64,000 bases of DNA from Rhodospirillales bacterium BBD 1991-14 (GTDB lineage Bacteria > Pseudomonadota > Alphaproteobacteria > Kiloniellales > Kiloniellaceae): assembly GCA_001657395.1 (NCBI GenBank), contig LYSY01000001.1, positions 558,001 through 622,000 of the forward strand, written 5' to 3'. The notes below the pieces were generated by a model that worked only from the letters and a program-made list of their open reading frames with translations, searched no databases and was not told the DNA's origin. Shown piece by piece: positions 27,837 to 47,632 of the stretch (its first letter is position 1; the number at the start of each line of letters is the position of its first letter). The position numbers were made by a program, and so were the translations under genes.

Positions 27837-27840
27837 CAGA

Positions 27841-28164
27841 TCATCCCTCTGCAGGGAAGGGTGGCTCGAAGGGGTGCTCGCGCACCACGAAACGCTTGCG
27901 CAGCTTCACATGGGCCAGGGAGTCGGCGGCCACGGCCTTGCCCAGGTCGGTACCGTACGCGCTCAACATGGCGTCTTCGCTGTCGAACCACAGCTCGCTG
28001 AAGCCGTCGAAGTCGTCTTCCGGGTCGGCGGCGATGTTGGCCTGATAGCGGCGCAGCCCCGGCAGCTTCAGCACCATGGGCAGATGCTCCTTCAACAGCC
28101 AGTCGGCGAAGGCCTGCGCCGAGAGTTCGTCCTTGCGCTTCAGCAGCACCACCGCCTTGATCAT
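27841..28164 (-). CDS. EthD domain-containing protein
   Basis: MIKAVVLLKRKDELSAQAFADWLLKEHLPMVLKLPGLRRYQANI; EthD-like; ATGA overlap with the TetR gene. Confidence 0.85.
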   Translation of the reverse strand: MIKAVVLLKRKDELSAQAFADWLLKEHLPMVLKLPGLRRYQANIAADPEDDFDGFSELWFDSEDAMLSAYGTDLGKAVAADSLAHVKLRKRFVVREHPFEPPFPAEG

Positions 28165-28844
28165 TCCGCTGCACCCCGATAGCTGAGGCCGCAGCCGCGC
28201 AGCACCATGCGGACAACCGTTTCTGCGGCTGTGTCGTAGTCCCTGGCGGCGAGTTGGCGGCGGCCAACCAGGGCGCTCACCTGCACCTCGAAATCGGCGT
28301 AGTGCTGGGTTGCCGCCCAGATCACCGAGAACAGATGGACGGGGTCCACCGGCTCGATCTTGCCCTGGCGCACCCAGCTTTCCAGCACCTTCGACTTCTC
28401 GGCCACCAGACTCTTCAGGTCGCTCTTCAGAAAGTCGCCGGTGTGCTTGGCGCCGCGGATCATCTCGTTAGCGTAGACCCGCGAGGCGAGGGGGCGCTCC
28501 CGCGAGTGACGGATCTTGGCGCGGATGTAGTCCGCCAGCGCATCGGCGGGATCGCTGTCTTCCGTCAGCCGGTCGAGCTCGCCCAGCCAGAGCGTCAGGA
28601 TGTCGTCGAGCACGGCGCGGTAGAGCGCTTCCTTGGTGCCGAAGTAGTAATGCACGTTGGCCTTGGGCAGGCTGGCGCGCTCGGCGATGGCTGCCGTGGT
28701 GGCACCGCGGTAGCCCTGCTCGGCGAAGATCTCCTCCGCGGCCTCAAGAATCAGCGCCCGGTTGCGCAGCCGGATGTGGCCGGGGGCGGTTTCCTCTTTT
28801 TCGGCCTCATTCACCGGGCCTTGTTTTGCTGCCGTTTCGCTCAT
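28161..28844 (-). CDS. rutR: TetR/AcrR family regulator, RutR-like
   Basis: NRALILEAAEEIFAEQGYRGATTAAIAERASLPKANVHYYFGTKEALYRAVLDDIL; RutR-type C-terminus; divergent from preTA; start trimmed to 28844. Confidence 0.85.
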   Translation of the reverse strand: MSETAAKQGPVNEAEKEETAPGHIRLRNRALILEAAEEIFAEQGYRGATTAAIAERASLPKANVHYYFGTKEALYRAVLDDILTLWLGELDRLTEDSDPADALADYIRAKIRHSRERPLASRVYANEMIRGAKHTGDFLKSDLKSLVAEKSKVLESWVRQGKIEPVDPVHLFSVIWAATQHYADFEVQVSALVGRRQLAARDYDTAAETVVRMVLRGCGLSYRGAAE

Positions 28845-28912
28845 CGGCTTTCTTTGTTTTCCTATCGCGTCTTTCGAACCGACCGTTCGCACGCACCAGG
28901 ATAGCGCAAAAC

Positions 28913-28928
28913 CTGACCAACTGGTCAA
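28913..28928. promoter_or_regulatory. RutR-like operator box 1
   Basis: CTGACCAACTGGTCAA; inner TGACCA-N2-TGGTCA dyad; resembles E. coli RutR consensus TTGACCAnnTGGTCAA. Confidence 0.85.
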
Positions 28929-28934
28929 AATTAA

Positions 28935-28950
28935 TTGACCGCTTGGTCAA
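28935..28950. promoter_or_regulatory. RutR-like operator box 2
   Basis: TTGACCGCTTGGTCAA; 22 bp centre-to-centre from box 1. Confidence 0.85.
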
Positions 28951-29010
28951 GGCAAGGCTACAGTCATCCTCAACAAAGAAGCAATACGCCGGAAGTGCGT
29001 AAGCAGGCAA

Positions 29011-30378
29011 ATGATCGGGGAGATCAGGATGGGTAACCAACCGGACATCGCGGCCGGGCGCTTGACCGATTCCGATTACGCGGAGAACTTCAGCGACGTG
29101 CATCCGCCGCTGGACCGCAAGGCGGCGCTGATCGAGTCGAGCCGCTGCTATTTCTGTTACGACGCGCCCTGCATCGAGGCCTGCCCCACCGGCATCGATA
29201 TTCCGAGCTTCATCCGCAAGATCTCGACCGACAACGTGCGCGGCGCCGCGCAGGACATTCTGGACGAGAACATCATGGGCGGTGCCTGCGCACGGGTCTG
29301 CCCGACGGAAGTGCTCTGCCAGGAAGCCTGCGTGCGCAACACGCAGGAGCACAAGCCGGTGCAGATCGGACTGCTGCAGCGCTACGCCACCGATGCGGTG
29401 ATGGACGCCGCCGCGCACCCCTTCCAGCGTGCCGAAACGACGGGCAAGCGGGTCGCCGTGGTGGGCGCAGGGCCGGCGGGGCTTTCCTGCGCGCATCGTC
29501 TGGCGATGCACGGCCACGACGTCGTGGTCTTCGAGGCCAAGGCCAAGGCCGGCGGCCTGAATGAATACGGCATTGCCGCCTACAAGGTGCCGGAGGACTT
29601 CGCTCACCGCGAGGTGGACTTCATCCTGGAGATCGGCGGCATCGAGATCCGCAACGACCAGGCGCTCGGACGCGATATCTCCCTGGCCGACCTCAGGCGC
29701 GATTACGACGCGGTCTTTCTCGGAATGGGTCTTGGCGGCGTGCGGGCGCTGGGGCTGGAGGGTGAGGATCTGGATGGCGTTTACAACGCTGTCGATTTCA
29801 TCGCCGATCTGCGCCAGAGCGAGAACCTGGCCAGCCTGCCGGTGGGCCGCAAGGTGGTGGTGATCGGCGGCGGCAACACCGCCATCGACATTGCCGTCCA
29901 GACCAAGCGCCTGGGGGCGGAGGACGTGACCCTGGTCTACCGCCGCGGGCCGGAGGCCATGTCGGCGACCGGGCACGAACAGGAGTTCGCCCAGGTCAAC
30001 GGCGTGAAGATCAAGCACTGGGCCCAGCCGCGCGAGATTCGCGGCGCCCATGGGCATGTGACCGATGTGGTCTTCGAGTACACGCAGCTTGACGGTAACG
30101 GGCGCCTCAGCGGCACCGGCGATGCCTTCAGCGTGCCCGCCGACATGGTGTTCAAGGCCATCGGCCAGGAGATGCTGCCGCTGCCCCAGGCGAATGGGAG
30201 CAGCGCGCTTCTGGAGATGGACGGCGCCTGCATCGCGGTCAACGACGACCGCCAGACCTCGCTGCCGGATGTCTGGGCCGGCGGCGACTGCGTGGCCGTC
30301 AGTGAAGACCTGACGGTCGCCGCCGTGCAGGACGGCAAGCTGGCGGCGGAGTCCATCAATCGTTTTCTGCGGTCCTGA
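29011..30378 (+). CDS. preT: NAD-dependent dihydropyrimidine dehydrogenase subunit PreT
   Basis: Fe-S Cys motifs (CYFCYDAPCIEACPTGID; CARVCPTEVLCQEAC) plus FAD/NAD GxGxxG; GVDxx glutamate synthase-like; adjacent to preA (start may be 29029). Confidence 0.94.
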   Translation: MIGEIRMGNQPDIAAGRLTDSDYAENFSDVHPPLDRKAALIESSRCYFCYDAPCIEACPTGIDIPSFIRKISTDNVRGAAQDILDENIMGGACARVCPTEVLCQEACVRNTQEHKPVQIGLLQRYATDAVMDAAAHPFQRAETTGKRVAVVGAGPAGLSCAHRLAMHGHDVVVFEAKAKAGGLNEYGIAAYKVPEDFAHREVDFILEIGGIEIRNDQALGRDISLADLRRDYDAVFLGMGLGGVRALGLEGEDLDGVYNAVDFIADLRQSENLASLPVGRKVVVIGGGNTAIDIAVQTKRLGAEDVTLVYRRGPEAMSATGHEQEFAQVNGVKIKHWAQPREIRGAHGHVTDVVFEYTQLDGNGRLSGTGDAFSVPADMVFKAIGQEMLPLPQANGSSALLEMDGACIAVNDDRQTSLPDVWAGGDCVAVSEDLTVAAVQDGKLAAESINRFLRS

Positions 30379-30421: not shown

Positions 30422-31699
30422 ATGGCTGACATTCGTTGCGACATCGCCGGTGTAAAGTCCCCCAATCCCTTCTGGCTGGCCTCGGCGCCGCCGACGGACA
30501 AGGAGTACAACGTCGTCCGTGCCTTCAAGGCCGGCTGGGGCGGTGTGGTCTGGAAGACCCTGGGCGAGGACCCGCCGGTTGTGAACGTGTCCTCGCGCTA
30601 TGGCGCCATGACCTACAACGGCACCCGCATGGCCGGCTTCAACAACATCGAGCTGATCACCGACCGGCCCCTCGACGTGAACCTGCGCGAGATCAAGCAG
30701 GTGAAGCGCGACTGGCCGGACCGCGCCATGGTGGTCTCCCTGATGGTGCCCTGCGAGGAGGAGAACTGGCGCAACATCCTGAAACAGGTGGAGGAGACCG
30801 AGGCCGACGCAGTGGAACTGAACTTCGGCTGCCCCCACGGCATGTCGGAGCGCGGCATGGGCTCCGCCGTCGGCCAGGTGCCGGAGTACATCGAGATGGT
30901 GACCCGCTGGTGCAAGAAGCACAGCCGCATGCCGGTCTTCGTGAAGCTGACCCCAAACGTCACCAACGTGCTGGGGCCGGCGCGGGCGGCCAAGGCGGGC
31001 GGGGCCGATGCGGTCTCCCTGATCAACACCATCAACTCCATCATGTCGGTCGACCTCGACATCATGGCGCCGACGCCGACGGTGGGCGGCAAGGGCAGCC
31101 ACGGCGGCTACTGCGGCCCGGCGGTGAAGCCCATCGCCATGCACATGGTGGCCGAGATCGCCCGCGACCCTGAATGCGCCGGCCTGCCGATCTCTGGAAT
31201 CGGCGGCATCAGCGACTGGCGCGATGCGGCGGAGTTCATGAGCCTCGGCGCCGGCTCGGTGCAGGTCTGCACGGCGGCCATGCACAAGGGCTTCAAGATC
31301 GTCGAGGACATGATCGACGGCCTCGGCTACTGGATGGACGGCAAGGGCCATGGGACGCTGGAGGACTTCCGCGGCGCGGCGGTGCCCAACGTCACCGACT
31401 GGCAGTATCTGGACCTCAACTTCGAGACGGTCGCCAAGATCGACCAGGACCTCTGCATCCAGTGCGGCCTCTGCCACATCGCCTGCGAGGACACCTCGCA
31501 CCAGGCCATCGCGGCGCAGAAGGACAACGGGTCGCGGCGCTACGAGGTGATCGACGCCGAGTGTGTCGGCTGCAATCTCTGCATGCACGTCTGCCCGGTG
31601 GAGGGCTGCATCTCCATGGTCGAGGTGGAGAACGGCAAGGACTACATGAACTGGACCCAGGATCCGCGCAACCCGATGAACCAGAAGGCGGCGGAATAG
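30422..31699 (+). CDS. preA: NAD-dependent dihydropyrimidine dehydrogenase subunit PreA
   Basis: DHOD-like barrel (ELNFGCPHGMSERGMGSAVGQ) and C-terminal ferredoxin motifs CIQCGLCHIAC / CVGCNLCMHVCPVEGC. Confidence 0.96.
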   Translation: MADIRCDIAGVKSPNPFWLASAPPTDKEYNVVRAFKAGWGGVVWKTLGEDPPVVNVSSRYGAMTYNGTRMAGFNNIELITDRPLDVNLREIKQVKRDWPDRAMVVSLMVPCEEENWRNILKQVEETEADAVELNFGCPHGMSERGMGSAVGQVPEYIEMVTRWCKKHSRMPVFVKLTPNVTNVLGPARAAKAGGADAVSLINTINSIMSVDLDIMAPTPTVGGKGSHGGYCGPAVKPIAMHMVAEIARDPECAGLPISGIGGISDWRDAAEFMSLGAGSVQVCTAAMHKGFKIVEDMIDGLGYWMDGKGHGTLEDFRGAAVPNVTDWQYLDLNFETVAKIDQDLCIQCGLCHIACEDTSHQAIAAQKDNGSRRYEVIDAECVGCNLCMHVCPVEGCISMVEVENGKDYMNWTQDPRNPMNQKAAE

Positions 31700-31793: not shown

Positions 31794-33032
31794 ATGACCT
31801 TGAAGAACCTCACGGTCAATCAGGACCGCTTGTGGGACTCCTTGATGGAGATGGCCCGGATCGGCCCCGGCGTGGCGGGCGGCAACTGCCGCCTGGCCCT
31901 GACCGACTTCGACCGCGAAGGACGCGACCTCTTCGTGCGCTGGTGCCAGGACGCGGGCTGCACCATCACTGTCGACAAGATGGGCAACATCTTTGCGCGG
32001 CGGCCGGGCAGCGACCCTTCGCTGCCGCCGGTCGCCACCGGCAGCCACCTGGACACCCAGCCGACCGGCGGCAAGTTCGACGGTGTCTTCGGGGTGCTGG
32101 CGGGCCTGGAGGTGATCCGCACCCTGAACGACAACGGCATCGAGACGGCGGCGCCTGTGGAGGTTTCGGTCTGGACCAACGAGGAAGGCTCCCGCTTCGC
32201 TCCGGCCATGGTCGCCTCCGGCGTCTTCGCCGGGGTCTTCGATCTGGACTACGGCCATTCCCGCGCCGACGTCGACGGCAAGACCATCGGCGCGGAGCTG
32301 GAGCGCATCGGCTACTTGGGCGAGGAGACGCCCGGCGAGCACCCGATGAAGGCCTTTTTCGAGGCCCACATCGAGCAGGGACCGATCCTGGAGGCGGAGG
32401 AAAAGACCATCGGTGTCGTCACCGGCGCCCAGGGCCAGCGCTGGTTCGAGGTGACGCTGACGGGGTCCGAATCGCACGCCGGGACCACGCCGATGAACCG
32501 CCGCAAGGATGCGCTGGTCGCCGCCTCCAAACTGGTGACGGCGATAAACGAGATCGCCCTGGCCCATCCGCCCCATGCCGTCACCACGGTCGGCATGATG
32601 CAGGTGAGCCCCAATTCGCGGAACACCATCCCCGGCTCGGTCTTCATGACGGTCGACCTGCGCCATCCCGATGACGAGACGCTCAGTCAAATGGAAAGCG
32701 AATTGCGCGCCGCCTGCGCCGGGATCTGCGATCCGGTGGGCGTCGAAGCGGAGATCGAGAACATCTGGTATTCGCCGCCGATCGCCTTCGACGCGGACTG
32801 TGTCGCGGCGGTGAAGAAGGCGGCGGGGGCGGCCGGCTACGGCAACATGGACATCATCTCCGGCGCCGGGCACGACGCTTGCTACATCAGCCGGGTGGCG
32901 CCCACCGCCATGATCTTCGTGCCCTGCGAGGACGGGGTCAGCCACAACGAGAGTGAATCGGCCACCCCGGAGGATCTGGCGGCGGGTTGCAACGTTCTGC
33001 TGCATGCCATGCTGGAGCGGGCTAGTGCTTGA
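31794..33032 (+). CDS. Zn-dependent M20-type hydantoinase/carbamoylase (beta-ureidopropionase candidate)
   Basis: ATGSHLDTQPTGGKFDGVFGVLAGLEVIRTLNDNGI, WTNEEGSRF, EAHIEQGPILE, SESHAGTTPMNRRKDAL. Confidence 0.93.
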   Translation: MTLKNLTVNQDRLWDSLMEMARIGPGVAGGNCRLALTDFDREGRDLFVRWCQDAGCTITVDKMGNIFARRPGSDPSLPPVATGSHLDTQPTGGKFDGVFGVLAGLEVIRTLNDNGIETAAPVEVSVWTNEEGSRFAPAMVASGVFAGVFDLDYGHSRADVDGKTIGAELERIGYLGEETPGEHPMKAFFEAHIEQGPILEAEEKTIGVVTGAQGQRWFEVTLTGSESHAGTTPMNRRKDALVAASKLVTAINEIALAHPPHAVTTVGMMQVSPNSRNTIPGSVFMTVDLRHPDDETLSQMESELRAACAGICDPVGVEAEIENIWYSPPIAFDADCVAAVKKAAGAAGYGNMDIISGAGHDACYISRVAPTAMIFVPCEDGVSHNESESATPEDLAAGCNVLLHAMLERASA

Positions 33033-33105: not shown

Positions 33106-33966
33106 ATGGCGCTAGAGGCGGCGATGCAGCAGGAAGCGGGGGCAGCGGCAAGGGAAGCGGGCGCGGAGCAGCGGGCAGAGGACCGGGTGCGGCCGGTCAT
33201 CGACGTCCAGAATCTCTCCCTGACCTTCGAGACCGCGGACGGGCCGGTCTACGCGCTTTCCGAAGTCGACCTCACCGTCAATGCCGGCGATTTCGTTTCC
33301 TTCATCGGGCCCTCCGGCTGCGGCAAGACCACCCTGCTGCGCGTGATCGCCGATCTGGAGCGCCAGACCGCGGGCACCATCAGCGTGAACGGTGTTGCGC
33401 CCCATGAGGCGCGCCAGGCCCGCGCCTACGGCTATGTTTTCCAGGCGCCCGCGCTCTATCCCTGGCGTACGGTGGAACGCAACGTCATGCTGCCGCTGGA
33501 GATCATGGGCATGAGCGGCGCCGAACGGCGCGAGCGGGCGGAGCGCTACCTGGATCTGGTGAATCTGAAGGGCTTTGAGAAGAAGTTTCCCTGGCAGCTT
33601 TCCGGCGGCATGCAGCAGCGGGTCTCCATCGCCCGGGCGTTGTCCTTCGAGCCCGACCTGCTGCTGATGGACGAGCCCTTCGGTGCCCTCGACGAGATCA
33701 CCCGCGATCACCTGAACGAGCAGTTGCTGCGCCTCTGGGAGCGCACCGGAAAGACGGTGATCTTCGTCACCCACTCGATCCCCGAGGCGGTCTTCCTGTC
33801 CTCGAAGATCGTCGTCATGTCGCCGCGCCCGGGGCGCATCATCGACGTGATCGACTGCAACCTGCCGCCGGACCGCACCCTCGACAGCCGCGAGAGCCAG
33901 GACTTCGCGGAGATCGCGCACCGGGTGCGCGAGGGGCTGCGGGCCGGGCACAGCTATGACGACTGA
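33106..33966 (+). CDS. ABC transporter ATP-binding protein (nitrate/sulfonate/pyrimidine type)
   Basis: Walker A GPSGCGKTT, signature LSGGMQQRVSIARAL, Walker B LLLMDEPF. Confidence 0.94.
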   Translation: MALEAAMQQEAGAAAREAGAEQRAEDRVRPVIDVQNLSLTFETADGPVYALSEVDLTVNAGDFVSFIGPSGCGKTTLLRVIADLERQTAGTISVNGVAPHEARQARAYGYVFQAPALYPWRTVERNVMLPLEIMGMSGAERRERAERYLDLVNLKGFEKKFPWQLSGGMQQRVSIARALSFEPDLLLMDEPFGALDEITRDHLNEQLLRLWERTGKTVIFVTHSIPEAVFLSSKIVVMSPRPGRIIDVIDCNLPPDRTLDSRESQDFAEIAHRVREGLRAGHSYDD

Positions 33967-34882
33967 GGCTCTCGGCGCTCCGCCACGACCGTCGCCCGGG
34001 CTTCTGTCCCGGATCTTCGCGGGACGCAGCGGCCCGCTGGCCGTGGTCTGCCTGGCGATCTTCGCGCTCTGGTACCTGGGAACCGTCTGGCTGAACGCAC
34101 CTCTTCTGATCGACCGCTATGAGCGGCAGGGGGAGGACTGGTCCATCACCCGCCTGGCTGAGGACGCCATGGCCATGGAGCGCCCGGTGCTGCCGGCGCC
34201 CCATCAGGTCGCGGTGGAGCTGAACAAGTCGATCTTCCAGCGCAACGTCACCTCCAAGCGCAGCCTCGTCTACCACGGCTGGGTGACCCTCTCCTCGACC
34301 CTGCTGGGCTTTGCCATGGGCACGCTGCTGGGCATCGCGCTTGCGGTCGGCATCGTCCATGTGAACACCCTGGACCGCAGCCTGCTGCCCTGGGTGATCG
34401 CCTCCCAGACCATCCCGATCCTCGCCATCGCGCCGATGATCATCGTTGTGCTTGGCAACATCGGCTTCACCGGGCTGGTGCCGAAGGCGCTTATCTCGAT
34501 GTATCTCTGCTTCTTTCCGGTGACCATCGGCATGGTGAAGGGCCTGCGCTCGCCGGACCCGCTGCAGATGGACCTGATGCGCACTTACAGCGCCAGCACG
34601 GGCCAGGTGTTCCGCAAGCTGCGCTGGCCGTCCTCGATCCCCTTCCTTTTCGCCAGCCTGAAGGTGGCCATCGCCATCTCCCTGGTCGGCGCCATCGTCG
34701 GCGAGCTTCCGACCGGCGCCTCGGCGGGCATCGGCGCGCGCCTGCTGGTGGGATCGTACTACGGCCAGACCGTGCAGATCTGGGCGGCGCTGCTCACCGC
34801 CGCGGCCATGGCGGGGCTGCTTGTCGCCGCCGTCGGCATGATCGAGCGGCTGGTGCTGCAGCGCACGGGGGCTCGGCCATGA
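33956..34882 (+). CDS. ABC transporter permease
   Basis: BPD-type inner membrane component; overlaps the ATPase gene. Confidence 0.92.
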   Translation: MTTEALGAPPRPSPGLLSRIFAGRSGPLAVVCLAIFALWYLGTVWLNAPLLIDRYERQGEDWSITRLAEDAMAMERPVLPAPHQVAVELNKSIFQRNVTSKRSLVYHGWVTLSSTLLGFAMGTLLGIALAVGIVHVNTLDRSLLPWVIASQTIPILAIAPMIIVVLGNIGFTGLVPKALISMYLCFFPVTIGMVKGLRSPDPLQMDLMRTYSASTGQVFRKLRWPSSIPFLFASLKVAIAISLVGAIVGELPTGASAGIGARLLVGSYYGQTVQIWAALLTAAAMAGLLVAAVGMIERLVLQRTGARP

Positions 34883-36039
34883 TGCGCCGGGCCTGGAAAG
34901 AAGAGGGCGCCTGTCTCCTGGCCCTTTTGTGTTTCGCCGTCTCCCTTCTTCTGCCGGTCGGTCAGGACGTGATCGGCAATGACGTATCCTGGCTTGCGGA
35001 GCCTGGACTTCTGCTTGGCCTCGGCATAACCGCCTTGGCCGCAGTGGGACAGGCGGCGCTCGCGCTGCGCGGCCTCGCCGTCGGCCTCATCTTGCTGGCT
35101 GTCTGTGTCGTCGGCGCCTGGGTGCCGCTTGCGGCCATCAGCCGCCAGTTCGCCGTTCTGGGCGCCGAAGCGCCTGTGGGTCTTCAAGGCCTCGGGGTCT
35201 GGGTCTTCGTCCTGGGGCTCGGCTTTCTGGTCTGGCGTACGCTCGGGTTGCTGTCGGAAGCCGCGGGCAAGGGGGACAGCAAAGGCTTCGCCGCGCTTCT
35301 GGTGCCCGGCCTCTTCGGCGCCTGGCTGATCTATCTCTGGCAGGTCGGTGTCACCGGCTTCGGCGTGCCGACGGTGCTGCTGCCCTCGCCGGAGCGCATC
35401 GCGGCCATCTTCATGGCCTCCACGGATACGCTGGTCGCCGACTTCTACCAGACCTTCATCAAGTCGGTACTGACCGGCTTCCTCATGGGCTGCGGCAGCG
35501 GCTTCCTGGTGGCGATCCTGGTCGACCGGGTGCCCTTCCTGCAGCGCGGCCTGCTGCCGCTCGGCAACTTCGTCTCGGCCCTGCCCATCGTGGGCGTGGC
35601 GCCGATCATGGTGATGTGGTTCGGCTTCGACTGGCAGTCCAAGGCGGCGGTCGTCGTCATCATGACCTTCTTCCCGATGCTGGTGAACACCATCACCGGT
35701 CTGCACGCCACCCAGGCGATGGAGCGCGACCTCATGCGCTCCTATGGGGCGAGCTACCTGCAGACCCTGGTTCGCGTGAGGCTGCCCAACGCCTTGCCCT
35801 TTATTTTCAACGCCCTCAAGATCAACTCCACGCTGGCGCTGATCGGCGCCATCGTGGCGGAATTCTTCGGCACGCCGATCGTCGGCATGGGCTTCCGGAT
35901 TTCCACCGAGATCGGCCGCATGAACGTGGAGATGGTCTGGGCCACCATCGCCGTGGCCGCCGTGGCCGGATCGCTGTTCTACGGGCTGCTGGCCCTGGCT
36001 GAGCGGGCCGCGACGTTCTGGCATCCCTCCTATCGATAA
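34879..36039 (+). CDS. ABC transporter permease
   Basis: 386 aa, BPD permease motif (ERDLMRSYGASYLQTLVRVRLPNALPFIFNALKI); ATGA overlap. Confidence 0.92.
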   Translation: MMRRAWKEEGACLLALLCFAVSLLLPVGQDVIGNDVSWLAEPGLLLGLGITALAAVGQAALALRGLAVGLILLAVCVVGAWVPLAAISRQFAVLGAEAPVGLQGLGVWVFVLGLGFLVWRTLGLLSEAAGKGDSKGFAALLVPGLFGAWLIYLWQVGVTGFGVPTVLLPSPERIAAIFMASTDTLVADFYQTFIKSVLTGFLMGCGSGFLVAILVDRVPFLQRGLLPLGNFVSALPIVGVAPIMVMWFGFDWQSKAAVVVIMTFFPMLVNTITGLHATQAMERDLMRSYGASYLQTLVRVRLPNALPFIFNALKINSTLALIGAIVAEFFGTPIVGMGFRISTEIGRMNVEMVWATIAVAAVAGSLFYGLLALAERAATFWHPSYR

Positions 36040-36124
36040 GGAAGGAAGACCAAGGGTTTGGGATGCGTTTAGGGAGAGAAACCTCAAGAGCAAGAAACGA
36101 GTCTCAGAGAAGAGGAGAGGCAAG

Positions 36125-37126
36125 ATGAGAAAGCTGATTTCACTGGCGGCAGGGGCGGGCCTGCTGCTGACGGCCGGTACGGCCGCAGCGGCCGACGAGG
36201 TGACGCTGCAGTTGAAGTGGGTGACCCAGGCGCAGTTCGCCGGCTACTTCGTCGCCCAGGACAAGGGCTTCTATGAAGAAGCCGGGCTCGACGTCACCAT
36301 CAAGCCGGGCGGGCCGGACATCGCCCCGCCGCAGGTGATTGCCGGCGGCGGCGCCGATGTGATCATCGACTGGATGCCCTCGGCCCTGGCGTCGCGGGAG
36401 AAGGGCGTGCCGCTGGTGAACATCGCCCAGGTCTTCAAGAAGTCGGGCATGATGCTGACCTGCCGCAAGGACAGCGGCATCACCTCGCCGGCGGACTTCA
36501 AGGGCCGCACCCTGGGGGTCTGGTTCTTCGGCAACGAGTACCCCTTCCTCTCCTGGATGGCGAAGCTCGGCCTGCCGACCGACGGCGGGCCTGAGGGCGT
36601 GACGGTCCTGAAGCAGGGCTTCAACGTCGACCCGATCCTGCAGAAGCAGGCCGATTGCGTCTCCACCATGACCTACAACGAGTACTGGCAGATCATCGAC
36701 GCCGGTCTCGGCGCCGACGACCTCATCGTCTACAAGTACGAGGACCAGGGCGTCGCAACCCTGGAGGACGGCCTCTACGTTCTGGAAGAGAACCTTCAGG
36801 ACCCGGCCTTCGTCGACAAGATGGCGCGTTTCGTGGCCGCCTCCCTGAAGGGCTGGGAGTACGCCAAGAACAATGTCGAGGAAGCCGCCGACATCGTGCT
36901 GGAGAACGACGAGACCGGCGCCCAGACCGAAAAGCACCAGCGGCGCATGATGGGCGAGATCGCCAAGCTGCTGGAAGGCTCGGCCAAGGGCCTTGGCTAT
37001 CTGGAGCCCGGCGACTACGACCGCACGGTGGACACCCTGTTGGCCAACGCCTCCACGCCGGTCATCACCAAGAAGCCGGAAGGCGCCTGGACCCATGCGG
37101 TCTGGGAAAAGGCCAACGGAATGTAA
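36125..37126 (+). CDS. ABC transporter substrate-binding protein (NMT1/THI5-like)
   Basis: Signal peptide; VTLQLKWVTQAQFAGYFVAQDKGFYEEAGLDVTIKPGGPD. Confidence 0.94.
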   Translation: MRKLISLAAGAGLLLTAGTAAAADEVTLQLKWVTQAQFAGYFVAQDKGFYEEAGLDVTIKPGGPDIAPPQVIAGGGADVIIDWMPSALASREKGVPLVNIAQVFKKSGMMLTCRKDSGITSPADFKGRTLGVWFFGNEYPFLSWMAKLGLPTDGGPEGVTVLKQGFNVDPILQKQADCVSTMTYNEYWQIIDAGLGADDLIVYKYEDQGVATLEDGLYVLEENLQDPAFVDKMARFVAASLKGWEYAKNNVEEAADIVLENDETGAQTEKHQRRMMGEIAKLLEGSAKGLGYLEPGDYDRTVDTLLANASTPVITKKPEGAWTHAVWEKANGM

Positions 37127-38998: not shown

Positions 38999-40270
38999 TC
39001 AGTGTTTCATAAAGTCGATAGCTTCATTCCCCAGCACCTTCAACCGCGTCTCTACCGGCGGGGTCTCCGCAACCACGCGGCCGCGGCGGATGACGGTGAG
39101 GCGGGCGGGCTTGAGGCGCAGAGCCTCCAGCACGTCTCCGGCCTGGAGGATCACCATGTCGGCATTGCAGCCGGGGGCGAGGCCGTAGCCTTCCAGCCCC
39201 AGGGTCCTGGCGCCGTTCTCTGTGACGGCGGCAAAGCAGTCCTTCTGTTCCTCGACGCCGGTCATGAGGCCGACGTGGAGGCCCATGTGGGCGACCTCGA
39301 TCATGTCGTGGCTGCCCAGGGGATACCAGGGGTCCATGACGCAGTCGTGGCCGAAGGAGACGTTGATGCCCTGGGCCAGCAGTTCCTTCACCCGGGTCAT
39401 GCCGCGGCGCTTGGGGTAGCTGTCGTGGCGGCCCTGGATGGTGATGTTGATCAGCGGGTTGGCCACTGCGTTCACCCCGGCCTCGGCCATCAGCGGCATC
39501 AGCTTGGAGACGTAGTAGTTGTCCATGGAGTGCATGGAGGTGAGGTGGGAGCCGGTCACCCGCTCCTGCAGGCCCAGGCGCTGGGTCTCGTAGGACAGGG
39601 TCTCGATATGGCGGGAGTTGGGGTCATCGGTCTCGTCGCAATGCATGTCGACCCGCAGCCCCCGCTCGGCGGCCAGTTCGCAGAGCAGGCGCACGGACTC
39701 GCCCCCCTCGGCCATGGTGCGCTCGAAATGGGGGATGCCGCCGACGATGTCGACGCCCTTGTCGAGGGCGCGGCGCATGTTCTCCCGGGCACTAGGTGAG
39801 CGCAGGTAGCCGTCCTGCGGGAAGGCGACGAGCTGCAGATCGATGACGTCCTTCACGGTATCCCGGACTTCCAGCAGCGCCTCGACGGCAAGCAGGCGGT
39901 CGTCGCAGATGTCGACATGGCTGCGGATCGCGAGCGTGCCCTTGGCGACCGACCAGCGGCAGAGCGCCAGCGCGCGCTCCTTCAGCGCCTCTACCGTGAG
40001 GTCAGGCTTCAACTCGCCCCAGAGAGCGATGCCCTCCAGCAGCGTGCCGCTCTGGTTCAGGCGCGGCAGGCCGAGGCTCAAGGTCGCATCCATGTGGAAG
40101 TGGCTGTCGACGAAAGGCGGCGTGACGAGGTGGCCCTGGGCGTCGATCTCCTGCGTCGCCTCCGCCGCGATGGCCGGCGCCACCTCGGCGATGACGCCGT
40201 TCTCTACGGCGATGTCCAGGCCGCTTGCGCCATCGGGCAGCGTGGCGTTGCGGACAATGAGATCGAGCAT
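38999..40270 (-). CDS. codA: Cytosine deaminase
   Basis: TPPFVDSHFHMDATLSLG, RSHVDICD, DMHCDETDDPNSRHIETL, VSFGHDCVMDPWYPLGSHDMIEVAHMGLHV. Confidence 0.93.
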   Translation of the reverse strand: MLDLIVRNATLPDGASGLDIAVENGVIAEVAPAIAAEATQEIDAQGHLVTPPFVDSHFHMDATLSLGLPRLNQSGTLLEGIALWGELKPDLTVEALKERALALCRWSVAKGTLAIRSHVDICDDRLLAVEALLEVRDTVKDVIDLQLVAFPQDGYLRSPSARENMRRALDKGVDIVGGIPHFERTMAEGGESVRLLCELAAERGLRVDMHCDETDDPNSRHIETLSYETQRLGLQERVTGSHLTSMHSMDNYYVSKLMPLMAEAGVNAVANPLINITIQGRHDSYPKRRGMTRVKELLAQGINVSFGHDCVMDPWYPLGSHDMIEVAHMGLHVGLMTGVEEQKDCFAAVTENGARTLGLEGYGLAPGCNADMVILQAGDVLEALRLKPARLTVIRRGRVVAETPPVETRLKVLGNEAIDFMKH

Positions 40271-40288
40271 GGGGCCTCTCTGTGGTCT

Positions 40289-41230
40289 CTAGCGCTCGCC
40301 CTTGCGGAAGGGCACCAGCAGGGCCTTGGGGTAGGCCGCGCGCCGCGACATGACGATCATCGCCAGGATGCTCAGAACATAGGGCATCATGAGGAAGAAC
40401 TGATAGGGGATAAAGGCCGATGCGGATTGCTGCACGCGGATCTGCAGTGCTTCGAAGGCGGCGAAGAGCAGCGCCCCGAGCAGGGCTTTGCCCGGCCGCC
40501 AGGAGGCGAAGATCACCAGGGCAACGCAGATCCAGCCGCGCCCGTTGATCATGCCGATGTAGAAGGCATCGAAGACGGAAATGGTGAGGAAGGCGCCGCC
40601 GACGGCCATGAAGGCACTGCCCAGCATCACGGCTGCGGTCCGCAGGCGGTGGACGTCGATCCCCTGGGCCTCCACCGCCATGGGGTTCTCGCCCACCATG
40701 CGCACGGCCAGTCCCAGTGGCGTGCGGTATAGGCCGTAGCCGACCAGGGGTACCAGGAGGAAAGCGAGGTAGGTGAGCGGGCTCTGGGTGAAGAGGACCT
40801 CGCCGAGGAAGGGAAGCTCGGACAGGCCCGGAACGGGGTAGGGCTGAAAGGGGTCGATCTTAGGCGGCGTGGTGACGTCCGGCAGCAGCATGCGGAAGGC
40901 GAAGTAGCTGAGCGCAGAGGCCAGCAGGGTGATGCCGATCCCGGTGACGTGCTGGGAGACGCCGAGATAGACGCTGAAGCCGGAGTGCAGCAGGCCGAAG
41001 AGGGCGCCAAAGGCCGCGGCCACCAGCACCGCCGACCACAGCCCGCCGCCCTGGTAGACCCACATCCAGGCGACCATGGCCCCCAGGGTCATGATGCCCT
41101 CGATGCCGAGATTGAGCACGCCCGCGCGCTCGCAGATGAGTTCGCCCAGGGTGCCGAAGATGAGCGGCGTTGCCATGCGCACCAGCGCGGCCCAGAAGCC
41201 CAGCGAGACGAAGATCTCCAGGATGTCCAT
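40289..41230 (-). CDS. ABC transporter permease (BMP/nucleoside type)
   Basis: TPLIFGTLGELICERAGVLNLGIEGIMTLGAMVAW typical of YufQ/NupQ-like permeases. Confidence 0.93.
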   Translation of the reverse strand: MDILEIFVSLGFWAALVRMATPLIFGTLGELICERAGVLNLGIEGIMTLGAMVAWMWVYQGGGLWSAVLVAAAFGALFGLLHSGFSVYLGVSQHVTGIGITLLASALSYFAFRMLLPDVTTPPKIDPFQPYPVPGLSELPFLGEVLFTQSPLTYLAFLLVPLVGYGLYRTPLGLAVRMVGENPMAVEAQGIDVHRLRTAAVMLGSAFMAVGGAFLTISVFDAFYIGMINGRGWICVALVIFASWRPGKALLGALLFAAFEALQIRVQQSASAFIPYQFFLMMPYVLSILAMIVMSRRAAYPKALLVPFRKGER

Positions 41231-41242
41231 GCCGTCCGGCCC

Positions 41243-42292
41243 CTAGCGCAGGCGGGGCCGGTAGCGCACGAAGAGCACGCTCGCCAGGACCAGCAGCAAG
41301 GCCGTCGCGGTCAGCACGTCGGCCAGGTAGTTGGAGATCGACATGGCCCGGCTCATGGCATCGGCGCCGTTGTAGATGGCGGCAACGAAGATCGCCGCCG
41401 CGATCACGCCCAGGGGATGCAGGCCCGCCAGCATGGCCACCGCGATGCCGGTGTAGCCAAAGCCGGGGGAGATATCGAGGGTGAGGTAGCCTTTCAGGCC
41501 CGCCAGCTCGCAGACCCCGGCCATGCCGGCGAGGCCGCCGGAGAGCAGCGCCGTCCGGAGCACGGTCGCGCCCATCGGGATGCCAGCGAAGCGCGCCGCC
41601 TCCGGGTTGTTGCCGACGGCCCGGATCTCGAAACCCCACTTGGAGTAGCGGATGAAGGCCCAGGCGGCGACCGCGAAGAAGACCGCCCAGAGCAGGCCCG
41701 AATGCAGGCGGGTGCGGGGGATCAGCGGTGAGAGCACGCCCTCGTCGATGACAGGTGCCGCCTGGGGCCAGCCCATGGCCAAGGGGTCCTTCCAGGGCCC
41801 GAAGAGCAGGTAGTTGGCGAAGAGCAGGACGACGAAGTTGAGGAGGAGTGTGGTTACCACCTCGTCGACCCTGAGCTTCAGCTTCAGGATCACGGGCAGC
41901 AGCAGCAGCAGCCCGCCGGCAAGGGCCCCGACCAGGAAAAGGAAGGGCACCATCAGCAGGGGCGGCAGGGTGACGAGCCCGGTGCCGACATAGGTCGCTG
42001 CCAGAGCGCCGGCATAGAGCTGGCCCTCGCCGCCGATGTTCCAGAGCTTGGCGCGGAAAGCAACAGCAGCGGCCAGCCCGGTGAAGATCAGCGGCGCCGC
42101 GCGGGTCAGGGTCTCGCTGAGGGCGAAGACCGAGCCCAGCGCGCCCTTCACCAGGGCGCCGTAGGCGGCCAGCACCGGCGCCCCCGCCCAGACGATGAGT
42201 AGCCCGCAGAGCAGGAAGGCCAGGGCGATGGCCGTCAGCGGGGCGGCCAGGTTCAGCCAGAGCGGCACATGGGCGCGGGGCTCAAGACGCAT
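41243..42292 (-). CDS. ABC transporter permease (BMP/nucleoside type)
   Basis: 349 aa; AFRAKLWNIGGEGQLYAGALAA and GFGYTGIAVAMLAGLHPLGV motifs of YufP/NupP-like permeases. Confidence 0.93.
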   Translation of the reverse strand: MRLEPRAHVPLWLNLAAPLTAIALAFLLCGLLIVWAGAPVLAAYGALVKGALGSVFALSETLTRAAPLIFTGLAAAVAFRAKLWNIGGEGQLYAGALAATYVGTGLVTLPPLLMVPFLFLVGALAGGLLLLLPVILKLKLRVDEVVTTLLLNFVVLLFANYLLFGPWKDPLAMGWPQAAPVIDEGVLSPLIPRTRLHSGLLWAVFFAVAAWAFIRYSKWGFEIRAVGNNPEAARFAGIPMGATVLRTALLSGGLAGMAGVCELAGLKGYLTLDISPGFGYTGIAVAMLAGLHPLGVIAAAIFVAAIYNGADAMSRAMSISNYLADVLTATALLLVLASVLFVRYRPRLR

Positions 42293-43859
42293 GGCGGCCC
42301 TCGTCGCGATGCCCTGCCGTACCGTGACCGGCCATCATCAGGCCGAGGGTTCTGAGATCTGCTTGTTCCACAGGGACAGGCTCGGAGAGACGCCCGTGGT
42401 AGAGCACGGCGATGCGGTCGGACATCTGCAGCAGCTCTTCCAGGTCCTCGGAGATCAGGACGATGCCGGCGCCTTCGGCCCGCGCCTGGAACAGCAGGGC
42501 CTGCACAGCCGCCGCGGCGCCGACGTCGAGCCCGCGGGTCGGCTGGTTGGCGAGGATGATGCGCGGCTTCTCATCCAGGACCCGGGCGAGGATCACCTTC
42601 TGCATGTTGCCGCCGGAAAGGCTGCGTGTGGCCGTGGTGGCGTCGGCGCCGCGAATGTCGAAGGCGGCGATCTTCTCTTCGGCATTTCGGCGCAGGGCCG
42701 CCCCCTTGACGAAGCCGAGGCGCGAGAAGCGGTCCCCGCCATAGGCTTCCAGAACCAGGTTCTCCTCCACCGTGAAGTCGCCGACGACGCCGGTGGCGTG
42801 GCGGTCCTCCGGCACCCGCCCGACGCCGCGCTTCAGCATGGCCGCCGGGGAGGCCGCCGTGATCGTGTCGCCGAGGATCTCGAAGCGTCCCGCCGTTGGT
42901 GCCTCGAGGCCGGAGATCAGGGCGGCGAGGGCGGCCTGACCGTTGCCGGAGACTCCGGCAATTCCGAAAACCTCTTTTCCACAGAGGGTTAGATCTAGAT
43001 TCTCAAGCGATATCTTGCCCTCTGCACCGCGCAGTCCGACGCCTTCCATCCGCAGCAGAGGCGCACCCGGCTCCAGGCGGCTGCGTTCGGGCAGGGCGAC
43101 CGCCCGGCCCACCATGGCCTCCGCAAGCCCTTCGCGGGAGGCTTCGGCGATGGGGAAGTCGGCCACCAGCCTGCCTTGACGCAGCACCGCAACGCGGTCG
43201 GCAATAGCCATCACCTCGTTCAGCTTATGAGAAATGAAAATGATGGAGAGCCCCTCGGCCGCCATGGTCTTCAAGGTGGCGAAGAAGCTTTCCACCTCCT
43301 GTGGCGTCAGCACCGCGGTCGGCTCGTCGAGGATCAGGACACGGGCGCCGCGGTAAAGCGCCTTAAGGATTTCCACCCGCTGACGCTCACCGACCGAGAG
43401 GTCGCGCACAAGGCGCCGGCTCTCCACCTGCAGGCCGAAGCGCGCCGCGAGGTCCTCGACACGGCGCCTGGCGGCCGCGCGGTTCTGCTTCAGACGCCAC
43501 AGCGGTTCCGTGCCCAGCACGATGTTGTCGAGCACGGTGAGGTTCTCGCCCAGGGTGAAATGCTGATGCACCATGCCGACCCCGGCGGCGATGGCAGCCT
43601 TGGGGGAGCCCGGCGGCAGGGCGTCCCCGAAAACCGCGATCTCGCCCTCGTCGGCCAGGTAGTGGCCGAAGAGAATGCTCATCAAGGTGGTCTTGCCGGC
43701 GCCGTTCTCTCCCAGGAGCGCCAGGATCTCCCCACGCCCCAGACCGAGGGAGATGGCATCGTTGGCGACCAGCGCACCAAATCGCTTGGTGATGCCGGAC
43801 AGCCGCAACACAGGCTCAGCGCCTGAGGCGGCAGCAGCGGACGCTTGCGCCTGCGCCAT
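42282..43859 (-). CDS. ABC transporter ATP-binding protein, duplicated ABC domains (BMP/nucleoside type)
   Basis: 525 aa; Walker A GENGAGKTT, signature LSVGERQRVEILKAL, second domain LSGGNMQKVILARVL. Confidence 0.94.
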   Translation of the reverse strand: MAQAQASAAAASGAEPVLRLSGITKRFGALVANDAISLGLGRGEILALLGENGAGKTTLMSILFGHYLADEGEIAVFGDALPPGSPKAAIAAGVGMVHQHFTLGENLTVLDNIVLGTEPLWRLKQNRAAARRRVEDLAARFGLQVESRRLVRDLSVGERQRVEILKALYRGARVLILDEPTAVLTPQEVESFFATLKTMAAEGLSIIFISHKLNEVMAIADRVAVLRQGRLVADFPIAEASREGLAEAMVGRAVALPERSRLEPGAPLLRMEGVGLRGAEGKISLENLDLTLCGKEVFGIAGVSGNGQAALAALISGLEAPTAGRFEILGDTITAASPAAMLKRGVGRVPEDRHATGVVGDFTVEENLVLEAYGGDRFSRLGFVKGAALRRNAEEKIAAFDIRGADATTATRSLSGGNMQKVILARVLDEKPRIILANQPTRGLDVGAAAAVQALLFQARAEGAGIVLISEDLEELLQMSDRIAVLYHGRLSEPVPVEQADLRTLGLMMAGHGTAGHRDEGRHAS

Positions 43860-43886
43860 CGTCAGATCCCCCGATGATCGATTGCT

Positions 43887-43927
43887 GCCGGGTCAGGGCA
43901 GGGCTAACACGACTGCCCCGACCCGGC
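43887..43927 (-). terminator. 15-bp stem-loop after the BMP solute-binding protein gene
   Basis: GCCGGGTCAGGGCAG ... CTGCCCCGACCCGGC; one mismatch in DNA that reads as a G-U pair on the minus-strand transcript; no U-tract. Confidence 0.55.
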
Positions 43928-43938
43928 GATACGTCCGG

Positions 43939-44991
43939 TCAGAACGTCGACTTGGGTTCGTCGTCGTTGGTCTGTACCACGAAGTCCCCGGCTTTGATCT
44001 CCTGGGCGAGAGTCTCGATCTTCGCCTTTGTTTCGGCCGGGATCTTGTCCTCGAACTCGTAGAACGGCGAGAGGGAGGCGCCGCCGGCCTTCATCATCGT
44101 CCACTCCTTGTAGTTCTCGGCCGTGAAGGTGCCGGCCTTCACCTGGGAAATGGCGTAGTCGATGGCCGGTTCCATGTGCCAGAGGGCCGAGGCGACCACC
44201 ACGTCTGTGCCGTTCTCAGCCTTGTTCATGTCGTTCACGTTGCCGAAGGCGATGATTCCCTTCTCACGGGCGGCGTCGACCACGCCGGCCCGCTCAGCGT
44301 AGAGCACGTCCACCCCGGCCTCGACCTGGGCAAAGGCGAATTCCTTGGCTTTCGGCGGGTCGTACCAGGAGCCGATGAAGGAGACCTTGAATTCGACGTC
44401 CGGGTTGACCGAGCGCGCGCCTTCCATGAAGGCATGGAACAGCCGGTTCACCTCCCCGATGGGAAAGCCGCCCACCATGCCGATCCTGTTGGTCTTGGTC
44501 ATGGTGCCGGCGACGATCCCCATGAGATAGCAGGGCTCGTGGATCCAGTTGTCGAAGACGGAGAAGTTCTTGCCGTGGGGCACACCCGGGTCGCCCATGA
44601 GGAAGGCGATTTCGGGATAGTCGTCGGCTACCTTGCGGGCCTCGCGGCTGATGCCGAAGGCCTCCCCGACGACCAGGTCGACGCCGCCCTCGGCGTACTC
44701 GCGCATCACCCGGACATAGTCGGTGTTGGGCACCTTCTCCGAGAAGCTGTACTCGATGTCGCCGCGTTCCTTGGCGGCGGTCAGCGCACGGTGTAGCGTG
44801 CCCACCCACTTCTGCTGGATCGGCACCGTGTAGATGCCGGCCACCTTCAGCTTTTCCGCCTGCGCCGCGCCGCCGGAAAGCCCAAAAACGGCTGCAGCCA
44901 CCAGTGCCGCCGCGCCGGCCTGCACGACCGTGCGGCGCCGCAGGCTGCGCTTTGCCAATACCGTACCGTTCCCCGAAATTCGAGAAGTCAT
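43939..44991 (-). CDS. BMP family ABC transporter substrate-binding protein
   Basis: Arg-rich leader SLRRRTVVQAGAAALVAAAVFG, then LKVAGIYTVPIQQKWVGTLHRAL ... FIGSWYDPPKAKEFAFAQVEAGVDVLYAERAGVVDAAREKG. Confidence 0.93.
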   Translation of the reverse strand: MTSRISGNGTVLAKRSLRRRTVVQAGAAALVAAAVFGLSGGAAQAEKLKVAGIYTVPIQQKWVGTLHRALTAAKERGDIEYSFSEKVPNTDYVRVMREYAEGGVDLVVGEAFGISREARKVADDYPEIAFLMGDPGVPHGKNFSVFDNWIHEPCYLMGIVAGTMTKTNRIGMVGGFPIGEVNRLFHAFMEGARSVNPDVEFKVSFIGSWYDPPKAKEFAFAQVEAGVDVLYAERAGVVDAAREKGIIAFGNVNDMNKAENGTDVVVASALWHMEPAIDYAISQVKAGTFTAENYKEWTMMKAGGASLSPFYEFEDKIPAETKAKIETLAQEIKAGDFVVQTNDDEPKSTF

Positions 44992-45072: not shown

Positions 45073-46705
<1,633 letters not shown>

Positions 46706-46768: not shown

Positions 46769-47632
46769 ATGGCGACGGTGCGGGCGGGCCTTATTCAGAT
46801 GGCTCTGAAGGCGGATACGGGGGAAAGCCCGGAAACCATCCGTGACAGGATGAACGAAGCGCATCTGCCGCTGATCGACGAGGCCGGCGCCAAGGGCGTC
46901 CAGGTGTTGTGTTTGCAGGAAGTCTTCAACCAGCCCTACTTCTGTCCCAGCCAGGACGTGAAGTGGTACGGCGCTGCGGAAAAGGTGCCGGACGGGCCGA
47001 CGGTCAAACTGATGCAGGACTATGCCAAGAAGCACTCCATGGTGATCGTGGTGCCGATCTACGAGGAGGACATCACCGGCGTCTACTACAACACCGCTGC
47101 CGTCATCGACGCCGACGGCAGCTACCTCGGCAAATACCGCAAGTCTCACATCCCGCAGGTGGCGGGGTTCTACGAGAAGTTCTTCTTCAAGCCGGGCAAT
47201 TCCGGCTGGCCGATGTTCCAGACGGCTTACTGCAAGCTCGGCGTCTACATCTGCTACGACCGGCATTTTCCGGAGGGCTGGCGCGCCCTGGCCCTTAGCG
47301 GGGCCGAGTACATCGTCAATCCCTCGGCCACCGTGGCCGGCCTCAGCCAGTACCTCTGGAAACTGGAACAGCCGGCTTCCGCGGTCGCCAACGGCTGCTA
47401 CATCGGCGCGGTCAACCGCGTCGGCACGGAGGCGCCCTGGAACATCGGTAAGTTCTACGGCTCCAGCTATGTCGTCAATCCGCGCGGCGAGTTCCTTGTG
47501 GAGGCCAGTGAGGACAAGGACGAACTTGTGGTCGCCGATATGGACATGGATATGGTCCGCGAAGTGCGGAACCTCTGGCAGTTCTTCCGCGACCGGCGGC
47601 CGGAAGCCTACGAACCGCTCACAGCGATCTGA
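46769..47632 (+). CDS. Nitrilase-superfamily amidohydrolase (beta-ureidopropionase candidate)
   Basis: Catalytic Glu (CLQEVFNQPYF), Lys (GKYRKSHIP), Cys (GVYICYDRHFPEGWRALAL). Confidence 0.92.
   Translation: MATVRAGLIQMALKADTGESPETIRDRMNEAHLPLIDEAGAKGVQVLCLQEVFNQPYFCPSQDVKWYGAAEKVPDGPTVKLMQDYAKKHSMVIVVPIYEEDITGVYYNTAAVIDADGSYLGKYRKSHIPQVAGFYEKFFFKPGNSGWPMFQTAYCKLGVYICYDRHFPEGWRALALSGAEYIVNPSATVAGLSQYLWKLEQPASAVANGCYIGAVNRVGTEAPWNIGKFYGSSYVVNPRGEFLVEASEDKDELVVADMDMDMVREVRNLWQFFRDRRPEAYEPLTAI

Follow-up and report, generated by a model that had tools for sequence, protein, structure and literature searches.

Paired dyads as probable operators of a predicted PydR-type repressor at the preT promoter of a Pelagibius pyrimidine-degradation cluster

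Two described systems stand closest to the locus analysed here: RutR of Escherichia coli, with a RutR regulog that extends over 68 genomes of 13 proteobacterial groups and includes taxon-specific changes of the motif (Leyn et al. 2016; PMC5343134), and PydR of Pseudomonas putida (Hidese et al. 2012, J Biochem 152:341; reference 19 in PMC7332683). DNA binding by E. coli RutR is impaired by uracil; W77, Y97, W167, Q171 and Q179 are the uracil-contact residues, whilst K52 and K62 contact DNA (PMC10891134). As described in PMC7332683, P. putida PydR is RutR-like and controls the dihydropyrimidine dehydrogenase of the reductive pathway, as is predicted for the regulator reported here. The targets of E. 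coli RutR are, in contrast, the oxygenase pathway (rutA-G) and carAB.

The window, a stretch of 64,000 nucleotides from Rhodospirillales bacterium BBD 1991-14, contains a PydR/RutR-like regulator gene of the TetR family (pydR; 28161–28844, − strand, ATG at 28844), which is divergent from preT. The product matches Pfam TetR_C_3 (YcdC-like, PF08362) with 177.5 bits (cut-off 25) and TetR_N with 55.5 bits (cut-off 24), and its best PDB matches are all E. coli RutR, to which it is about 40% identical. The uracil- and DNA-contact residues named above are all identical in the two proteins, and the window system shares with E. coli RutR and its regulog the family, the 16-bp operator design, the DNA-contact lysines and the uracil-contact residues. 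TetR_N with PF08362, these contact residues and 16-bp TTGACCANNTGGTCAA-type operators place the regulator in the RutR/PydR superfamily in the broad sense. However, it scores below both curated RutR equivalogs (TIGR03613, 196.5 against a cut-off of 368; NF011584, 178.9 against 230), whilst E. coli RutR, run as a control, exceeds both (385.5 and 463.6, respectively). In our tree the regulator and its reductive-pathway relatives are split, with 100/99 support, from a clade of E. coli RutR and rutA-adjacent alphaproteobacterial RutR. Strict orthology to E. coli RutR is ruled out by these curated cut-offs and by the tree, and ‘PydR-type’ is therefore the better name. The first-pass annotation had called the divergent TetR gene RutR-like, a reading that is well supported in the broad sense. 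P. putida PydR, whose host belongs to a different class of Proteobacteria, is likened here by its description. A 109-residue frame (27839–28165, −) overlaps the end of the regulator gene; at E 0.001 it matches nothing in Pfam or NCBIfam.

On the + strand, preT (29029–30378), encoding the NAD(P)H/FAD subunit of dihydropyrimidine dehydrogenase (Pfam Fer4_20, dihydropyrimidine dehydrogenase domain II, and Pyr_redox_2), starts at an ATG at 29029 that is conserved in the alignment, with GGGGAG upstream. It is followed by preA (30422–31699, +; catalytic subunit, NF006183 PreA, 722 bits against a cut-off of 335), by a hydantoinase/carbamoylase-family amidase gene, the product of which is a probable N-carbamoyl-beta-alanine amidohydrolase (31794–33032, +; TIGR01879, 437 bits against 204), and by genes for an ABC transporter (33106–37126, +; ATPase, two permeases and substrate-binding protein), co-directional with preTA, whose position suggests a probable role in pyrimidine uptake. 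Further along, hydA (45073–46515, −; dihydropyrimidinase, TIGR02033, 595 bits against 393) is divergent from a CN-hydrolase gene (46769–47632, +; Pfam CN_hydrolase). The product of the latter is a probable beta-ureidopropionase; its closest NCBIfam model is N-carbamoylputrescine amidase, for which it scores below the cut-off. Downstream of hydA lie genes for a BMP-type ABC transporter (40289–44991, −; Bmp Pfam) and a cytosine deaminase (38999–40270, −; PRK07572, 775 bits against 438), and the genes at 38999–44991 (−) are likely to form a salvage and uptake operon. Together, the preTA and hydA regions are a full reductive pyrimidine-catabolism cluster.

Two 16-bp dyads, neither assigned to a strand, lie in the regulator/preT intergenic region: the predicted operators O1 (CTGACCAACTGGTCAA; 28913–28928) and O2 (TTGACCGCTTGGTCAA; 28935–28950), 22 bp apart centre-to-centre, exactly where the first-pass annotation had placed them. 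Each has a single specified-position mismatch to TTGACCANNTGGTCAA, which we take, as in that annotation, to be the E. coli RutR consensus. The E. coli rutA region, tried as a strict-consensus control, contains TGGACTAAACGGTCAA, which is itself three mismatches off the consensus. The description of the intergenic region as AT-rich is apt relative to the window (66% G+C) but not in absolute terms (50.5% G+C, 46.5% in its core). Conservation near preT in relatives, on which the proposal had been made to depend, is evident: in all eight genomes of our genus set (Pelagibius, Kiloniellaceae) both dyads and their 22-bp spacing are kept, with 14 of 16 columns invariant in O1, 15 of 16 in O2, and 1 of 61 in the regulator-proximal part of the intergenic region. 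One genus relative (L014) has an extra, partial copy of the dyad (CTGACCAACTGGCAAAA) immediately upstream of O1.

The predicted preT promoter (28935–28964, +) comprises a −35 element, TTGACC (28935–28940), an 18-bp spacer and a −10 element, TACAGT (28959–28964). It is the sole promoter-like match in 28800–29060, where 0.1 would be expected, and its −10 block (GCTACAGT; 28957–28964) is invariant in 8/8 genus genomes. Because the −35 hexamer sits within O2, the model that best fits this promoter is steric repression that uracil relieves; such occlusion is proposed by analogy with E. coli RutR, the DNA binding of which is impaired by uracil (PMC10891134). In the proposed mechanism, a repressor dimer on each dyad would block access of RNA polymerase to the preT promoter when uracil is absent; binding of uracil (possibly also thymine) in the conserved pocket would release the repressor and switch on preT, preA and the genes co-directional with them. 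The regulator would also act 18 kb away, at two matching sites in the hydA/beta-ureidopropionase promoter, such that one regulon may embrace all the steps of reductive pyrimidine catabolism, uptake and cytosine deamination. We regard it as highly probable that a PydR-type repressor on the dyads occludes the preT promoter and is released by uracil, with the hydA promoter in the same regulon. Since neither the promoter scan of 28800–29060 nor the genus alignment revealed a conserved promoter that could serve the regulator gene, the case for autoregulation, which had also been predicted and is unsupported here, is one of position; it is nonetheless plausible.

Whether both dyads take part in repression of preT merits consideration. 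It is possible, though we think it rather unlikely, that O2 is the only functional repressor site for preT, with O1 being auxiliary or serving the regulator's own promoter; only O2 overlaps a promoter element, and one genus of the family (g2) has a single full dyad at the position corresponding to the preT promoter. Against this, O1 is conserved like O2 throughout the genus set at a fixed spacing, and two dyads also occur in other lineages, at distances of 23, 33, 34 or 40 bp in the class-wide loci. Joint occupancy of O1 and O2 by the repressor seems the better reading.

The ligand can be approached through the pocket. The first-pass annotation had predicted uracil/thymine-responsive control of the reductive pathway; control of that pathway, as a prediction, is well supported, whilst uracil as the effector is read from the pocket residues only. 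An alternative is that the regulator binds the dyads but responds to a different inducer, such as dihydrouracil, N-carbamoyl-beta-alanine, thymine only or a purine-derived ureide. Within the subclade, related regulators adjoin xanthine dehydrogenase or allantoicase genes, and ligand preference may have shifted among them; however, the window regulator has lost none of the five uracil-contact residues, nor has any regulator at the 42 loci that have pyd genes close by, and the substitution Y97F is confined to loci that have no pyd genes, the allantoicase-linked Marinobacter included. We therefore judge a different inducer to be improbable, and retain uracil as the predicted ligand. Some gammaproteobacterial members of the subclade have purine genes (xdh, allantoicase) alongside and no pyd genes there, so clade membership by itself does not reveal the ligand; the purine-gene neighbours and Y97F suggest a possible shift to purine-derived compounds. 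A PreA search of three gammaproteobacterial genomes, a set that included no positive control, was empty; the Pseudomonas-family loci retrieved derive from genomes without a PreA match. Within the window regulator's subclade, L125 lies beside xanthine dehydrogenase (xdh) and L077 beside allantoicase; the uracil pocket of L077, like that of L083, carries Y97F.

Two further sites, absent from the first-pass annotation, would extend the regulon beyond the preT promoter. Predicted operator O4 (CTGACCAAATGGTCAA; 46690–46705, no strand assigned) is upstream of the CN-hydrolase gene, and predicted operator O3 (CTGTCCGTTTGGTCAA; 46557–46572, likewise unstranded) is upstream of hydA; both sites of this divergent promoter are kept in 8/8 genus genomes. 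O3 is the weaker, with hybrid half-sites: its CTGTCC half is the half-site of the motif found in Burkholderiales relatives of the regulator (CTGTCCGATTGGACAG), combined here with an alphaproteobacterial half-site. The Burkholderiales motif is in line with the taxon-specific RutR motif changes of Leyn et al. (2016). One operator code would thus join two promoters 18 kb apart, and the likely regulon of a complete Pelagibius pyrimidine-degradation cluster can be fixed from sequence alone.

The sites are rare. With up to three mismatches, the window holds six matches where 1.18 are expected, a number reached in none of 100 shuffles. The genome-wide scan proposed in the first-pass annotation showed that exact YTGACCRNNTGGTCAA occurs at three sites only in the 5.5-Mb genome (28913, 28935 and 46690 in window coordinates), all in pyd-cluster promoters; the seven one-mismatch sites beyond the window all fall within long reading frames. 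In other Kiloniellaceae genera there is either one dyad or two, 32–33 bp apart. Across the class, an exact dyad is found upstream in 18/30 regulator loci and a reversed control pattern in 0/30, the remaining 12/30 having no exact dyad in the upstream stretch examined. Short inverted repeats are common and near-matches do occur elsewhere in the genome, but the confinement of exact dyads to pyd promoters and their conservation in genus, family and class, with the reversed control absent, rule out an origin as chance palindromes. Rarity, conservation and the identity of the regulator all give good support to the operator assignment, and the two dyads are very probably the operators of the adjacent PydR-type TetR repressor.

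The first-pass annotation correctly located the regulator with preTA rather than with the Rut pathway, but the surprise it implied is misplaced, as Alpha- and Betaproteobacteria usually show this arrangement. Amongst 289 genomes of the class, 42 have RutR-like regulators and 6 have RutA over the cut-off; at 80 named loci of close regulator relatives, no RutA match lies within about 6 kb, whilst preT, preA or the amidase is nearby at many, those of Burkholderiales amongst them. This survey and these loci indicate that pairing of a RutR-like regulator with the reductive pathway is common. A PydR-type role in controlling the reductive pathway accords with predicted operators at both pyd promoters and with the Kiloniellaceae genomes searched, none of which has RutA above the family cut-off. 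The arrangement is real, conserved and ordinary, the last because a RutR-like repressor of the reductive pathway is already on record for other bacteria. With RutA so rare in the class, PydR may be the better name for many alphaproteobacterial ‘RutR’ regulators.

In one alphaproteobacterium that has RutA (L142), a gene of the RutR clade lies next to RutA together with a TGGACCATATGGTCAA site (position 2674), which implies that the oxidative and reductive pathways share an operator type. A broader and tentative proposal, which we hold to be possible but on balance doubtful, is that PydR and RutR are sisters that have kept operator and pocket whilst swapping pathways (reductive or oxidative pyrimidine, or purine), that paired phased operators (22, 33 or 34 bp apart) tune cooperativity, and that tandem PydR–RutR pairs could share sites. 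In Kiloniella (L024/L033, L026/L039 and others), PydR-type and RutR-type regulator genes are found in tandem near preA and hydA, at loci with two dyads 32–33 bp apart; other families also have adjacent regulator pairs (G044, G139, G215 and G244).
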